DNA from: Saccoglossus kowalevskii
Lineage: Eukaryota; Hemichordata; Enteropneusta; Harrimaniidae
Reading direction: 5' to 3'
DNA: 50,968 nucleotides
NCBI RefSeq assembly: GCF_000003605.2
Contig: NW_003130854.1
Coordinates: forward strand, 1,748,866-1,799,833
Below, piece after piece: positions 28,392-50,905 of this stretch. Within the stretch, counting starts at the first letter, position 1, and every line of letters begins with the position of its first letter. The translations under genes and the position numbers were made by a program. The notes under the pieces were generated by a model that made no database searches, was not told the origin of the DNA, and saw only the letters and a program-made list of their open reading frames with translations.

Positions 28392-28460
28392 GCAGTTTTC
28401 GACAGACAGTTGGTAATACTTACCAGGACTGAGGTTTACCAACTGTCTGCGAGAAACTGC
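28392..28460. other. 69-nt inverted-repeat hairpin upstream of copy 1
   Basis: Two 25-nt arms, starting GCAGTTTTCGACAGACAG and ending CTGTCTGCGAGAAACTGC, pair with a few mismatches around a 19-nt loop. An equivalent 69-nt hairpin stands at 36576-36644. It lies about 730 bases upstream of the TATA box. The size resembles a microRNA precursor, but a small MITE-like palindrome is also possible. Confidence 0.6.
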
Positions 28461-28556: not shown

Positions 28557-28680
28557 GCGTGAAAGCAACCTCATTTTATGAGGCTAATTTAATCGTATTT
28601 AATTATGTTTAAATATGCGTTAATTATTCAATGTTAAATATATCTTTTACGTCAAACATTATCAATATTATAATGCGAAA

Positions 28681-29098
28681 TTGGTTCAGGGAACAACTGA
28701 CTATTCACAACACTCCATAAACTGCCTAATTATAATACGTTGTTTCAATGAGTTCATGAGTGAATTATGTGTCATGCTAGAAAATCAGTTAAGTAATCCG
28801 GACCTTTTGCTGGTGGTGGCGCAAACAGAAGAAAAAAATCATCATAAAAGCCATCTTTATCGCAACTGGAATAAACATGCACCTGTCGTTATCCGTCGGA
28901 ATTTGTTCTTCTAATGCTGCTAGAAAATATCAAAGCGAAACGCAGGTCTTATGCTAAGATCGAAAAAGCGGCTGAAAATTTGATTAAAGAAGACATTTTG
29001 GGCTTTCATGATAACTTGGACGCAATACTGAAAAAGTCTGAATAATAAATTAGATGCGACTAGACAAGGTTGAAGAAGACATTAAGGATGCTGATGAA
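28681..29098 (+). pseudogene. Coding-like remnant running into the gap
   Basis: Two short open frames follow each other. The first, opened from about 28756 by MSELCVMLENQLSNPDLLLV, ends at 28914. The second starts at ATG 28913, overlapping that stop, and reads 44 residues with a Lys/Glu-rich composition (for example KAAENLIKEDILGFHDNLDA) to TAATAA. A third frame, MRLDKVEEDIKDADE, runs into the gap. The matching region of copy 2 (about 37080-37370) is broken by deletions and stops. This could be a decayed gene fragment or exons of a gene hidden by the gap; I do not recognise the product. Confidence 0.3.
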
Positions 29099-31137
29099 NN
29101 NNNNNNNNNNNNNNNNNNNNNNNNNNNNNNNNNNNNNNNNNNNNNNNNNNNNNNNNNNNNNNNNNNNNNNNNNNNNNNNNNNNNNNNNNNNNNNNNNNNN
29201 NNNNNNNNNNNNNNNNNNNNNNNNNNNNNNNNNNNNNNNNNNNNNNNNNNNNNNNNNNNNNNNNNNNNNNNNNNNNNNNNNNNNNNNNNNNNNNNNNNNN
29301 NNNNNNNNNNNNNNNNNNNNNNNNNNNNNNNNNNNNNNNNNNNNNNNNNNNNNNNNNNNNNNNNNNNNNNNNNNNNNNNNNNNNNNNNNNNNNNNNNNNN
29401 NNNNNNNNNNNNNNNNNNNNNNNNNNNNNNNNNNNNNNNNNNNNNNNNNNNNNNNNNNNNNNNNNNNNNNNNNNNNNNNNNNNNNNNNNNNNNNNNNNNN
29501 NNNNNNNNNNNNNNNNNNNNNNNNNNNNNNNNNNNNNNNNNNNNNNNNNNNNNNNNNNNNNNNNNNNNNNNNNNNNNNNNNNNNNNNNNNNNNNNNNNNN
29601 NNNNNNNNNNNNNNNNNNNNNNNNNNNNNNNNNNNNNNNNNNNNNNNNNNNNNNNNNNNNNNNNNNNNNNNNNNNNNNNNNNNNNNNNNNNNNNNNNNNN
29701 NNNNNNNNNNNNNNNNNNNNNNNNNNNNNNNNNNNNNNNNNNNNNNNNNNNNNNNNNNNNNNNNNNNNNNNNNNNNNNNNNNNNNNNNNNNNNNNNNNNN
29801 NNNNNNNNNNNNNNNNNNNNNNNNNNNNNNNNNNNNNNNNNNNNNNNNNNNNNNNNNNNNNNNNNNNNNNNNNNNNNNNNNNNNNNNNNNNNNNNNNNNN
29901 NNNNNNNNNNNNNNNNNNNNNNNNNNNNNNNNNNNNNNTCCATGGAAGGTCATTCTCTTGCTCAGCTGCTGAATCAATAACCGTGGCTGAACGCACCACC
30001 AGAGTCAACTACATGTAGTTTTCTTTCCAAGATTTTTGTTTTGCGAGATGTCTCGACGAAGATCTGTATTATCTGATTTGAATGGCAACGAGGGGGATAG
30101 AAGTCACAGCGAGTGCTGAACTGAATCGGGAGATGCGATCGCTTAGGTTTAAAGTTGTTACTATTTTGTTGATTTGTAAAATAACCTGTTCGCCATAAAT
30201 CGTTTTTTAGTTCCCAAAACTGTTAGTGTGATGATTCTTTTTCCATCTTAAATGCGTAATACATAGTACCGGAACAACTGCTGGCGGGGACTACTGCCGG
30301 TATCTAACATTCAGTTCACTTTCTATATCATGTATAACAAATCTAACTGAATCCGTCAAATTATTTATTGAGAATGTGAAGATAAAGAAAAATAAAACAG
30401 GTAAAACAAGGATGCTCACACACACGCTTTTACAGCTGCTTGTCTGGGGTTTTACGTGTAGCCATGTTGTAGCCAAGTCCGGGCCCAAGTGTTTCACTTC
30501 CGACTCATTGTGGTCGGAGTCCATGACACGTAATTTGGTCACGAAAACTAAGTCTGCCATGTGCTCAAATTTTCTACCTTCTGTTTATACCTCCATGGTC
30601 TGATCAATTAAATCGTGGAAGGTACCTTCCATGATTAAATTTTCATAATAATCGCTTTACATACTGTCGACGTTCTTCTCAAAATTTCCTTGCATTTGTT
30701 TTTTTCGTCACTGTCATAGTCGACCCCAAGACGGTTTCATAGTCGACTGCTTGAAGAGTGAGAAATTCAACAAAATTAAATTTGTGGACGAGCGTAAATG
30801 GAGTGCGTGTAACTTGTACCTCGGACTACTAATACAAAAATGTACTCGTATTACTAGTCTGAGCTTGTACCATAGACCCTCAACGTATGGGTGGTGACTA
30901 TTATGCAAATTATCTGTCTATTATGTCTTTGGCTGATTAATTAAAACATAGCTTTCAAAACAATGACATGTGCTTTTGTTTTTAATTAACAAAAAATGAT
31001 TTTTAAACCCTATAAAGACATTGAATTCACTTTTTTTCCTACTGAGTGTTTGCTCATTGTAGTCCAGCATTGAAAAATACAAAAAAGTAGAATTTTGGGT
31101 TTCAAAGCAAAAAAGGTGTACAGCCTCCTTAAATGAT
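29083..31137. other. About 2 kb present only in duplication copy 1
   Basis: Copy 1 and copy 2 agree up to GAAGAAGACAT (29072-29082 and 37368-37378) and resume at ACGGCAAAAG (31139 and 37379). Between them copy 1 has about 2 kb including the gap. The readable part (29939-31137) has open stretches on both strands but no recognised domain. It is either an insertion in copy 1 or a deletion from copy 2. Confidence 0.6.
29099..29938. other. Assembly gap, 840 N
   Basis: A run of undetermined bases within the part of copy 1 that copy 2 lacks. Open frames crossing it are artefacts. The true length may differ. Confidence 0.99.
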
Positions 31138-36575: not shown

Positions 36576-36644
36576 GCAGTTTTCGACAGACAGTTGGTAA
36601 TACTTCACAGGACCGAGGTTTGCCAACTGTCTGTCAGAAACTGC
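36576..36644. other. 69-nt inverted-repeat hairpin upstream of copy 2
   Basis: Same length and arms as the copy 1 hairpin. The 5' arm is identical across all 25 bases; the 3' arm has changed at a few sites but still pairs, one change giving a G-U-type pair. The loop has also diverged. Confidence 0.6.
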
Positions 36645-37876
36645 TTAATCCGCTGAGCGTGTGTGAGGTTGTTCACCTCTGTTGAGTAAATAGACCATTG
36701 AACAGTATGCTGGAGAATACAATTGGAGAATACTGTTATTGTGTGAAAACAACCTTATTTTATGTGGCTAAGTTATAATTTTACAATATTCAACGATAAA
36801 ACGTTAATTATTCAATGTTAAATATATCTTGTGCGTCTAATACAGAAAACATTATCATCATTGCCATCAATGTCAGTTTAATTTGTAACATTCTTACTAT
36901 CATTTGTGTACTGTAGTGCTCTCTGTGCTCATGTTACGTGATTTGGAGGTAACAAGAGAAACCAAAGACTGATAAATTTCGTCAACAACCATTTTAGATA
37001 ATGTGAAATTGTTCACAGGGGCCAACTAACCATTCACAACACTCCATTAACTGAATAAATATAATACGTTGTTTCAATGAGTTCGTGAGTGAATTATGTG
37101 TCATGCTCGGAAATCAGTTGAGTAATCCGGACGTTTTGCTGGTGGTGGAGTTCATCTTTATCGCAACTGGAATAATCTGCCGTTATCCGTCATAATTTGT
37201 ATAGCTGTTCTTCTAATGCTGCTCGACAATAATAAGCGAAACGCAGGACTTTTGCTGAGACCGGAAATGCGGCTGAAAACTTGATTAAAGAAGACATTTT
37301 GAGCTAATTGCATTATCACCTGGACGCAATATTATGAATAATAAATTAGATGCGACTGGACAACTTTGAAGAAGACATACGGCAAAAGCTTCAAGATTAA
37401 TTGAGAATAAACGATCTTTAAAAAAAAAGAAAAAAAACATGTACTGGTCTTAGGCTACAATCAAACAGCTATTTTCGGTGATATGATTTAATCGACACAC
37501 ACTTTTCATGACCATATTAATTATTGTTAGCCTCAAGCAATCTGTATAACCTCAATCTCAATCTCAATCACCAAATAAACGCTAAATATGTTATTGAAAT
37601 TAACATATATATCACTAACATTCATTCATTAAAAGATATTCAACCACGGTAACAATACTGTGCATACAAGAATAAGTACCATTGTTGTTATAAATTACCA
37701 TCGGTCAAGCGTAAATCATCATGCATCTCAATATTACAGGGGGCATCGTACAATTCAAAATGTTGTATTTCCAACTCGTTTTCAATGCGTCTCATAGTCT
37801 CGATGAATTGCGCCCCTAGCAACAGAACGCTTCTGTAGCGTATACAGGGTTGAACTCGTTGAAATCGACAATTGCG

Positions 37877-37882
37877 TTTATT
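37877..37882 (-). promoter_or_regulatory. Candidate poly(A) signal of the selenoprotein gene
   Basis: First clear AATAAA on the minus strand past the stop, about 660 bases downstream. It leaves room for a SECIS element in the 3' UTR. Weak evidence on its own. Confidence 0.25.
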
Positions 37883-38476
37883 TTTCTATATTATAGTAAC
37901 ATATATCCAAAACATAATTCTTATTCATGAATAACTACTGATTAAAACGATGCCAACGATTTTCACGACCTCCCTGTTATCAATTTCCGTCATAGATACT
38001 CTAGAGGGCATGACTTATAAGAAAGGTATATTGAGCCTTTCAGCTGAAATTATCCCTTTCTTTATCAAGAAAGCTTATTAAGTGTGTGCAGTAATACCCA
38101 CAAACTTTCAATTTGAATGCATCATTTATATATCTTGATTATAATATTATATATTTATATGCAGTAATACTCATGAATGGTTTACAAATCTTTTCAATAA
38201 AAAAACAATTGAGGCATAAATCATGTACAATTCTCAGTCATACAATATATCTCTAAAAAGCTTTTCACAGTATGACGTCATATGACATTGTTTTCATGCA
38301 ACAATGTTTAAAATATGAACAAGGAAGCAATTATATATTAGTGTGTAGATGGTTATACTGGTTCAAATAAAGTGAAGACCTGGAGCTGAATAGTATTTAA
38401 AATTGTATGAATAACCAACTTATCTGTGTATGTCCGTTTCGACACAGGAGATATTCTAATAAAGTAATTACAATCT

Positions 38477-38540: not shown

Positions 38541-40371
38541 TTAATTTGAAGACAGCCACTTCTCTACTACATCAGCCATCCATGAGATTGAATCTGGATT
38601 TCTTGTAGTTTCGACCGTATTAGTTCCAATCATCTTTATTTTTCTGTCTTCAATAATAAAAACATCTTCCGGGAAGCAGTCATAGATGCTGGCAAATGAG
38701 TGTTCCATATCATCACTGACGACACGGATCTATGGTGAAAGTACATGTTAGGTAAATATGATAATACCGTATACAACTATGTTTTTAGAGTACATTGATC
38801 AAACATCATACATACATCATACATACAACACAATTGAAATCTGCTTGTCAAAACACCGGTTAAATTATCACGTTTGTCTTAATACTGCTGTCGTTGTTTT
38901 GCTGGTGCCACACAAACACGTCATACACATAATTAAAATAATTACCTTATCAGCACAATCAATGTTTGTAGTAGCGATGTCTTTGGTTTCTGTATTGATA
39001 GCATCCACCAAGAGCTTTGCAGCATTTATTTTCTCCTCAATAGTTTTGTGCTGAAGTATCATACTTTCATCCAAATTTATCCCATCTGATGGATGAGCCT
39101 CTAGCTGGTACACAATCATAAACTCTGCCTTCTCCTTATAAGCATTATAAAGGATTGCGAGTCGACCCTGCTTAACAAGAATCTATGATAACGTGCAGGA
39201 TTAGTTCAATGTATTTGAATGTATACAGGAATGGAAATGACGCAACATGAGAACTTAAAATGTATAATGCCCAACAATATTGTGGCTAAATTCAGGAGAG
39301 TCAATGTTAACTTCGTTTTGAACATTCTGACTAATCTCACTCGGTCAAACAAATCTTTTATAGTATTGTGCTACGGGTTCTGTTTTACACATTTTTGCAG
39401 AATAAAACGCCAGTCATAATTACACTCTACGTGGTACTAAACAAACTGTGTCGCCCATGTGATGAATATCGGCATTGTAATCAAAGCACACATAATACTG
39501 GGACAAATTAGACGAACATTTTCAAAATATTACACGCAATAAATTACTCGTCAGTAGCCAGCTGGAGTTTTTCTGGTGTGTTTGATAATCTCATCAGAAG
39601 TGTTTTAATTACAACATAAAAATCGTTTCCTCAAGTATCTTAATTTGTAACAATAACGCAATTCAGACAAACTAACTTATTATCCCAACAAAATAAAGCA
39701 CAAAATACATTGAATACCGCCAGTTAAACCCACCATTCATTCGATTGATATGACAAACTACTAACCGACAGCATTGGTCAGCTCCAAGATGAAGAAAATA
39801 TTACCAGTGGTTTAGTTTTTTGTATGTGACATCTAGACAAAACACTATACTTTTGTTCGTCGTCCAAAGAATGTACTTCAACATCTGGGGCCTCATCGCC
39901 AACGTTCAATGGAGTCTTAGGATAATATGTACTTCTCTCGACTGCGATTTGATCCATGATCTATGGGACAAAGAATTACGCAAGGTTACCCAGGGAATAA
40001 AGGACGCTGCCGGTTGGCAATAATGAGTGAGACGCAGTCGAGTCCATTTTTAAAGCAAACATCTCTTATCAGAGTAGACAGATAGAAATGGACAATGGTC
40101 TGGCCGCACATTAGAATACACGTACCTCTTGATCGGAATGATAATTTTGTATTATCGTTCGCATTACTGAGTACTTTGATTGCTTGAACTCGAGGTTATA
40201 GTATGCAAATGCCCTTTTCCATGCTTCTTTATAAGGTGTTATGAAATTTGGATCATTGTTCCTGAGCTTGTCCCTGATTTCTAGAGAATCGTCCGCCATG
40301 ATTTCTTTCATCTTAATGATTAGTTTCAATGTAGTGTCACGATCATCAAATATCGAGCGTTGTTGTTCCAT
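38541..40371 (-). CDS. Iodothyronine-deiodinase-like selenoprotein, 288 aa, 4 exons
   Basis: Minus-strand exons 40371-40126, 39960-39766, 39182-38946 and 38729-38541, all separated by phase-0 GT-AG introns, 867 nt with stop. Deiodinases are thioredoxin-fold enzymes that remove iodine from thyroid hormones using selenocysteine. Exon 2 carries NVGDEAPDVEVHSLD (about residues 101-115), then KPLVIF and SSSWS-Sec-P, where Sec143 is an in-frame TGA at 39780-39778. Exon 3 carries MIVYQLEAHPSDG (residues 169-181), matching the family's EAHxSDG motif with Glu175 and His177. Exon 4 has the C-terminal VVSDDMEHSF and EDVFIIEDRKIKM segments, ending with TAA. Spacing from Sec to EAHPSDG is 31 residues, close to the usual 29. 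Odd points: the usual Gly-Ser-Cys-Thr before Sec is replaced by Ser-Ser-Trp-Ser, and the charged first 82 residues show no membrane anchor. The ATG may be internal, because an acceptor-like CCCAG sits 10 bases upstream of it. The substrate is not known; it may not be an iodothyronine. Confidence 0.85.
39778..39780 (-). other. In-frame TGA read as selenocysteine (Sec143)
   Basis: The TGA lies five codons before the exon 2 donor, at the exact position of the catalytic Sec of deiodinases (Sec followed by Pro). The frame is open on both sides and downstream exons stay homologous and in phase. A stop codon here would remove the EAHPSDG region and the C-terminal half. Confidence 0.8.
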
Positions 40372-49709: not shown

Positions 49710-50905
49710 GAATAGATTACATGACATCTTAATATCCATAAGTTTACATCACATCTTGGTATCCATGTGGGGATTAATCACATATTGGCATTCATAAGTT
49801 GATTGACACATGTTTGTATCCATAAGTAGATTACGTCAAATCTTGCATATCCATTCGTAGTGGGAACCATGAGTAGATTACAAGACATCTTGGTTTCCAT
49901 ACTTAAATTACAATATATCTTGGTAGATTACACGATCAATTGTTATCCATACGTAGATTACAAGACGTCCTGGCGTTGATGCGTACATTACAAGACATCT
50001 TAGTATCAATACGTAATTTACAAGACATCTGCATCGATACGTATATTATAAGATATCATGGTATCCTTACATGGATTACAAGACATCCTGGCATCCATAC
50101 ATAGATTAAACCAAATTATTGCATCCATACGTAAATTACATCACATGTTGGTAGCCATTCGTAGCTTACAAGCGATATTGGCAATCGTACATAGATCCAT
50201 GCACTGATTACAATACATCTTGGTATCCATACCTAAATTACAAGACATTTTGGTATCCATACGTAGATTAAAATACTTCATGGCATCCATACACAGATTA
50301 CAAAACTTCTTAGTATCCTTACATAGATTTCAAGATATCTTGGTTTCCATACGTAGATTACAATCCATCCTGGCATCCATACGTAGATTATATGACATCT
50401 CGATATCCATACAAAGATTACATGACATATTGGTATCAATTCGAAATCATTATCCATACATAGATTACAAGATATCTCTGCATCCACACGTAAACTACAA
50501 GACATCTTGGTATCCTTACATAGGTTAGAAGACAACCTTGCATTGATTACAATACATCTTTGTATCTATACTTTAATTACAAGACATCTTAGTATTATTA
50601 AGTAAATTACAACATATCTTAATATCTATACGTAGATTACAACACATCTTGGCATCCTTACATAGATTACAAGAAATCGTAGTAACTAAACAGAAATTAC
50701 AAGACATCTTAGTGTCAATACGTAAATTGCAAGACATATTAGTATCAACACGTAGGATTACATGACATCCTAGAATCCTTATGTAGATTACATGACATTA
50801 CGAGACATTATAATATTCATACGTCAATTACGATACATCTTAGTATCGATACGTAGATGTCATGCCATCTTGGCATCCATCAGTAGATTACAAGACGTTT
50901 TACAT
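49710..50905. repeat. 30-bp satellite array
   Basis: Close to 40 diverged copies of a unit like TTACAAGACATCTTGGTATC followed by CATACGTAGA, in one orientation and nearly continuous to the end of the window. Some units are shortened or carry small insertions. Because the period is a multiple of three, several frames stay open over long stretches. Confidence 0.9.

Follow-up and report, generated by a model that had tools for sequence, protein, structure and literature searches.

A deiodinase-family gene with an in-frame TGA, probably decoded as selenocysteine, in Saccoglossus kowalevskii

Does a gene of the hemichordate Saccoglossus kowalevskii whose reading frame is crossed by a TGA encode a complete selenoprotein of the iodothyronine deiodinase family, or does the TGA end the protein? 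The locus lies in a stretch of 50,968 nt (hereafter the window) of contig NW_003130854.1. We read it as an intact animal gene of this family in which the UGA at codon 143 specifies selenocysteine (probability about 0.87). This kind of gene is already known from the published Sec deiodinases of invertebrates and is ordinary for an invertebrate genome. The finding leaves existing knowledge of selenoproteins unchanged, and the gene may be an example of those that annotation can mishandle.

Gene structure and family membership

The gene is encoded on the minus strand, which the first-pass annotation had omitted to say, with its exons running from 40371 to 38541 (Table 1). The four phase-0 exons and the 288-residue product proposed there could be reproduced: the joined exons comprise 867 nt, or 288 codons followed by TAA, the phase is 0 throughout, and all three introns have GT...AG borders. 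The sole internal stop in the joined frame is the TGA at codon 143, and the two alternative frames hold 18 and 27 stops. All the landmarks listed with that model (APD, KPLV, Sec-Pro, EAHPSDG) occur, and in order. In two paralogs elsewhere in the genome, L127 and L128, the three introns fall at corresponding positions and the TGA recurs, which gives the gene model independent support. An alternative acceptor for exon 3, located after AAGCAG and giving five codons fewer, was dropped because both paralogs retain those codons behind the same boundary.

Table 1. Features of the deiodinase-like gene, in window coordinates
Feature	Position	Strand	Remarks
Exon 1	40126..40371	-	82 codons from ATG; N-terminal region common to three close copies; without a transmembrane-like stretch
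Exon 2	39766..39960	-	65 codons; APD..KPLV..SWS-Sec-P; donor 4 codons past the TGA; boundary common to L127 and L128
In-frame TGA, codon 143, predicted selenocysteine	39778..39780	-	Catalytic codon also TGA in seven other copies
Exon 3	38946..39182	-	79 codons; VYQLEAHPSDG and second His region
Exon 4	38541..38729	-	62 codons and TAA; C-terminal region
SECIS-like element	38220..38294	-	Core ATGA at 38281-38278; 260 nt past the stop (UTR+260)
AATAAA, possible polyadenylation signal	37877..37882	-	UTR+659, downstream of the SECIS-like element; consensus match only

The 5′ end of the coding region deserves comment, as an AG lies 10, 8 and 8 nt upstream of the ATG in the window gene, L127 and L128, respectively. 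These distances break a single phase, so an upstream coding exon bearing a membrane anchor seems less likely, from the sequence, than an intron in the 5′ UTR.

The first-pass annotation had proposed searching the joined translation against deiodinase profiles. With Cys typed for Sec, the protein matches the Pfam family T4_deiodinase (PF00837) with 73.0 bits (cut-off 27; E 2.9e-20). The match extends over residues 101 to 262, contributed by exons 2, 3 and 4, and covers profile positions 74-218 of 237. Individually, exon 3 (E 6.1e-10), exon 4 (E 0.016) and exon 2 (E 0.091) also match the profile, and exon 1 alone gave no match to it. The best sequence matches in the PDB are mouse Dio3 (E 3.2e-11) and Dio2 (E 1.1e-4), and a profile built from bacterial relatives only recovers the window protein with E 6e-24 from a set of three sequences. 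At codons 143-144 the gene reads TGA-CCA, which places a proline directly after the catalytic residue; the seven other copies found in the genome likewise have a TGA followed by a Pro codon. Two scans of viral contigs for relatives gave 66 stretches, none of which was confirmed, and 0 matches, respectively, and none of the 91 stretches obtained by searching genome contigs with alignment A1 was confirmed.

Decoding of codon 143

The codons past the TGA are under purifying selection, with dN/dS of about 0.3. For the window gene and L127, dN/dS is 0.363 before the TGA and 0.347 after it (95% CI 0.186-0.627), and the corresponding values for the window gene and L128 are 0.344 and 0.312 (CI 0.191-0.515). 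Bootstraps of the post-TGA value reached 1 or more once in 1000 for L127 and never in 1000 for L128. The comparison of L127 with L128 is less clear before the TGA (0.619, with 82 of 1000 bootstraps reaching at least 1) and gives 0.261 after it, with no such bootstrap. As the post-TGA values lie well below 1, the sequence behind the TGA has been maintained as protein.

Downstream of the stop codon, the minus strand contains a SECIS-like element of the form ATGA-C-GUCAUAC...AAAA...GUAUGAC-UGAG, which combines an ATGA and GA core with a 7-bp helix and 12 nt to the apical AA. We take its quartet, spacing and apical adenines to be those expected of a eukaryotic SECIS. Compared with the UGAN/KGAW core given for mussel deiodinases in the portion of PMC8481496 that describes it, the fit is only partial. 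Similar elements are located at UTR+185 in L127, where UTR+732 offers another, weaker candidate, and at UTR+196 in L128. In BLAST comparisons, the window UTR aligns with those of L127 and L128 over a single stretch (195-279) covering the element's 5′ half, and with that of a third close copy, L126, over a stretch (181-331) that includes the whole element. At the last pair of the 7-bp helix, C-G is shared by the window gene and L126, whereas L127 and L128 share U-A; one pair of the L126 helix is broken. Since L127 and L128 are close copies, their U-A pair is probably one event, and in a shuffle test of covariation among the four sequences the observed value was reached in 79 of 500 shuffles, which is not significant.

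Rfam SECIS_1 scores the window element at 16.6 bits (E 0.7), well under the cut-off of 35, and does so in a 131-nt scan only; a 5-kb scan returned no SECIS match, and the whole window returned 0 Rfam matches at gathering score. At E up to 10, Rfam found no SECIS in seven 9-kb paralog loci and reported none of the candidate elements of L126, L127 and L128. SECIS_1 was also run on eight short stretches, four candidates and four controls, and its single hit was a candidate (L144; 16.9 bits, E 4.3). A rule-based SECIS scan is unspecific, as 107 of 1000 shuffled 1-kb UTRs also match; it marks one place per strand in the real 51-kb window, that on the plus strand being unrelated. The folding energy of the window hairpin is unremarkable (z -1.1). 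In the first 1200 nt downstream, the copies L129 and L131 showed no SECIS candidate and L130 showed two weak ones. The SECIS-like element common to the close paralogs is best described as suggestive, below formal significance.

The genome also contains genes for the selenocysteine tRNA. A tRNA-Sec match (RF01852) on contig C4068 scores 76.7 bits (cut-off 47), and an array on C1591 (G000:C1591:112-9534; L134-L140) contains ten above-cut-off matches on one strand, placed about 1.3 kb and 0.5 kb apart. A further 34 matches fall below the cut-off, and five of 14 control genomes pass it. ARAGORN, run on four of the eight loci, assigned the anticodon TCA in L133, L135 and L140, with three genes each in L135 and L140, and found no tRNA gene in L134. 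Animals usually have one or a few tRNA-Sec genes.

The first-pass claim of a deiodinase-like selenoprotein is supported by the catalytic TGA in all eight copies found, the purifying selection past it, the suggestive SECIS-like element and the tRNA-Sec genes, and we consider insertion of selenocysteine at codon 143 nearly certain. The TGA could otherwise be a true stop, leaving a pseudogene or a truncated protein with the downstream exons as relics. A TGA is indeed present, and L126 shows that a close copy can be plainly broken, with lesions in exons 1 and 4. The window copy, however, has no other in-frame stop in its 289 codons; given this, the constraint on the post-TGA codons described above and the TGA shared by every copy, we rejected the pseudogene reading as very improbable. 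A single reading frame crossing the TGA would also be expected if the genome had a changed code that assigns TGA to a standard amino acid. Yet the joined genes of the window, L127 and L128 each contain TGA once, exactly at the Sec position, and tRNA-Sec genes with the anticodon TCA are present; a changed code was accordingly rejected, its probability being lower still. Decoding of UGA as selenocysteine is thus the reading we retain.

Copies and relatives

A PF00837 search of the window's own 572-Mb genome, in which 17 of 17 candidates were scored and none of 14 control genomes matched, returned 10 exon matches that group into at least eight gene places on six contigs: the window gene, three on C2222 (L126, L127 and L128) and one each on C1465, C1267, C4558 and C1606. 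Eight is a lower bound for this genome. L127 and L128 are intact, with 289 and 293 residues and intron phases as in the window gene. The third copy on C2222, L126 (G000:C2222:238000-247500), has both a TAA and a frame shift in exon 1, and its exon 4 is disrupted by another frame shift, by an insertion and by a TGA replacing Trp. We thus find a family of at least eight deiodinase-like copies, all with the active-site TGA, in which one close copy is decaying beside intact ones. Such a within-genome family could help in asking what roles deiodinases had before, or have besides, thyroid hormone metabolism.

Phylogenetic placement was assessed in a small unrooted tree built with fragments of mouse Dio2 and Dio3 together with 18 of the 70 usable bacterial rows, and lacking Dio1 and other invertebrates. 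In this tree the window gene groups with L126, L127 and L128 (support 100/100), and this close four-copy clade sits on a long branch of 1.01 changes per column. All eight own-genome copies stay together, apart from the two mouse fragments, with support of 100/98 against the mouse rows and 94/94 when the bacterial rows are included. As a separate observation, dS to L127 and L128 is 0.22 and 0.24 in exon 3 and far higher, 0.73 and 0.93, in exon 2, a pattern that gene conversion between copies might leave.

The vertebrate enzymes DIO1-3 (PF00837; mouse Dio3, 4TR3; mouse Dio2, 9H48) likewise have the Sec-Pro site, the EAHPSDG loop and both relay histidines, and the window protein is 35% identical to the matched Dio3 fragment and 29% to the Dio2 fragment. 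There are differences from the mouse proteins. The window site reads SWS-Sec-PML, with a Trp two residues before Sec, whereas the mouse sites read SCT/SAT-Sec-PPF; the window protein has two extra residues past Sec-Pro and a shorter loop between the two histidines; and directly after EAHPSDG it has Ile in place of the mouse Trp. Unlike DIO1-3, it has no visible transmembrane stretch, and its N-terminal segment is its own.

The published descriptions, as far as the cited portions go, give the Sec deiodinases of Lottia, Capitella, amphioxus and Trichoplax and the mussel McDx and McDy a TGA for Sec, multiple copies, some of them clustered, and SECIS elements, where the present gene has a SECIS-like element only. 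The portion of PMC3473315 concerned lists 11 deiodinases for Trichoplax, four for Lottia, 12 for Capitella and nine in a sixth column, which we read as amphioxus, and its section 10 describes invertebrate deiodinase clusters with SECIS elements. Two cloned mussel genes with TGA and SECIS are described in part of PMC8481496, a sea urchin paper (PMC9856734) contains many deiodinase entries, and PMC4692385 names two deiodinases from oyster.

Deiodinase-like genes, including forms with TGA as the catalytic codon, also occur in bacteria (Planctomycetota, Chloroflexota, Alphaproteobacteria and others), where a pattern scan gave at least 117 loci (L001-L117). Among the 119 pattern matches listed, 102 fit the active-site expression, and of these 67 have a catalytic TGA and 35 have Cys; the other 17 fall outside the expression and do not enter the residue counts. 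Inspected by eye, 13 of these 17 have Cys (12 with GSVSC, that is, Ser before Cys, and L106 with Thr before Cys), in L085 and L094 the upstream part is truncated or unclear, and L008 and L087 do not resemble relatives. The bacterial proteins share a FGSxT-[Sec/Cys]-PF-like site, EAHP[ST]DG and a similar spacing with the window protein, whereas their genes read as one open frame without introns and are separate from the window gene in the tree. Among the matches listed, Thr precedes Sec/Cys in all 102 fitting rows and Trp lies past EAHPxDG in 85 of them; the window protein has Ser and Ile at these positions.

Active site, proposed chemistry and surrounding sequence

A proton relay proposed for Dio2 consists of Ser127, Thr129, Tyr157, Glu160, His162 and His182, according to the part of PMC11592359 that sets it out. 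These positions align to Ser140, Ser142 (a conservative change), Tyr172, Glu175, His177 and His192 of the window protein. Since the relay residues are kept in the alignment, reductive dehalogenation is chemically plausible. The second relay His is absent from two of the eight copies, L131 and L132.

The product is probably a deiodinase-family reductase that is soluble and uses selenocysteine, likely a dehalogenase. No membrane anchor was found within the 288-residue model, in which the highest hydropathy mean over 19 residues (1.26, at residue 133) falls inside the catalytic core, and the protein is probably cytosolic. A catalytic domain of thioredoxin/peroxiredoxin-like fold would follow an N-terminal segment roughly 95 residues long. 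During translation, UGA at codon 143 would be read as selenocysteine, aided by the tRNA-Sec of the genome and a SECIS hairpin of the 3′ UTR. By homology, the selenolate of Sec143 may then remove iodine, or another halogen, from an aromatic substrate, formally in cationic form, with the proton supplied by the network Ser140/Ser142/Tyr172/Glu175/His177/His192 and the enzyme presumably regenerated by cellular thiols. Reductive dehalogenation is the chemistry we favour, with some reserve.

The same fold could instead serve a selenoprotein that is not a dehalogenase but a peroxiredoxin-like enzyme or a thiol reductase acting on peroxide, disulfide or a similar substrate. A peroxiredoxin motif within the deiodinase fold is described in the relevant passage of PMC11592359, and the close four-copy clade, besides its long branch, has Ile or Phe, not Trp, past EAHPSDG. 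However, the window protein keeps all six proton-relay positions with the same or a conservative residue, and its EAHPSDG loop is intact. Moreover, Ser before the catalytic residue is not an exclusive mark of the window clade, because the 12 listed bacterial relatives with GSVSC, all of them Cys proteins, have it too. Such a non-dehalogenase function is unlikely, though it carries real weight beside the dehalogenase that we prefer.

Features associated with thyronine binding differ in the window protein, with Ile for Trp past EAHPSDG, a Pro aligned to Dio2 Phe224 (counted along the fragment) and no visible membrane anchor, and thyroid hormones as the natural substrate are a doubtful proposition. 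More speculatively still, the window gene may, together with its three close copies, make up a clade of soluble selenocysteine-dependent dehalogenases peculiar to this lineage, with their own N-terminal segment and an altered pocket (SWS-Sec-PML/PFM/PFL, and an EAHPSDG loop without Trp), whose substrates would be halogenated phenolics other than thyroid hormones.

The sequence around the gene contains several further features. A repeat, GCAGTTTTCGACAGACAGTTGG, forms a hairpin with an inverted near-copy at 36576-36644 and recurs at 28392-28413; near these copies lie two frames similar to each other (36998-37195 and 28624-28911), and the repeat looks like a dispersed mobile element. The low G+C at 28-30 kb is due to a run of 840 N at 29099-29938. 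A single open frame of 202 residues at 14239-14844 matches the Ras family (PF00071, E 1.8e-22), and an array of repeats of about 30 bp (ATCCATACATAGATTACAAGACATCTTGGT and variants) occupies 49944-50854.
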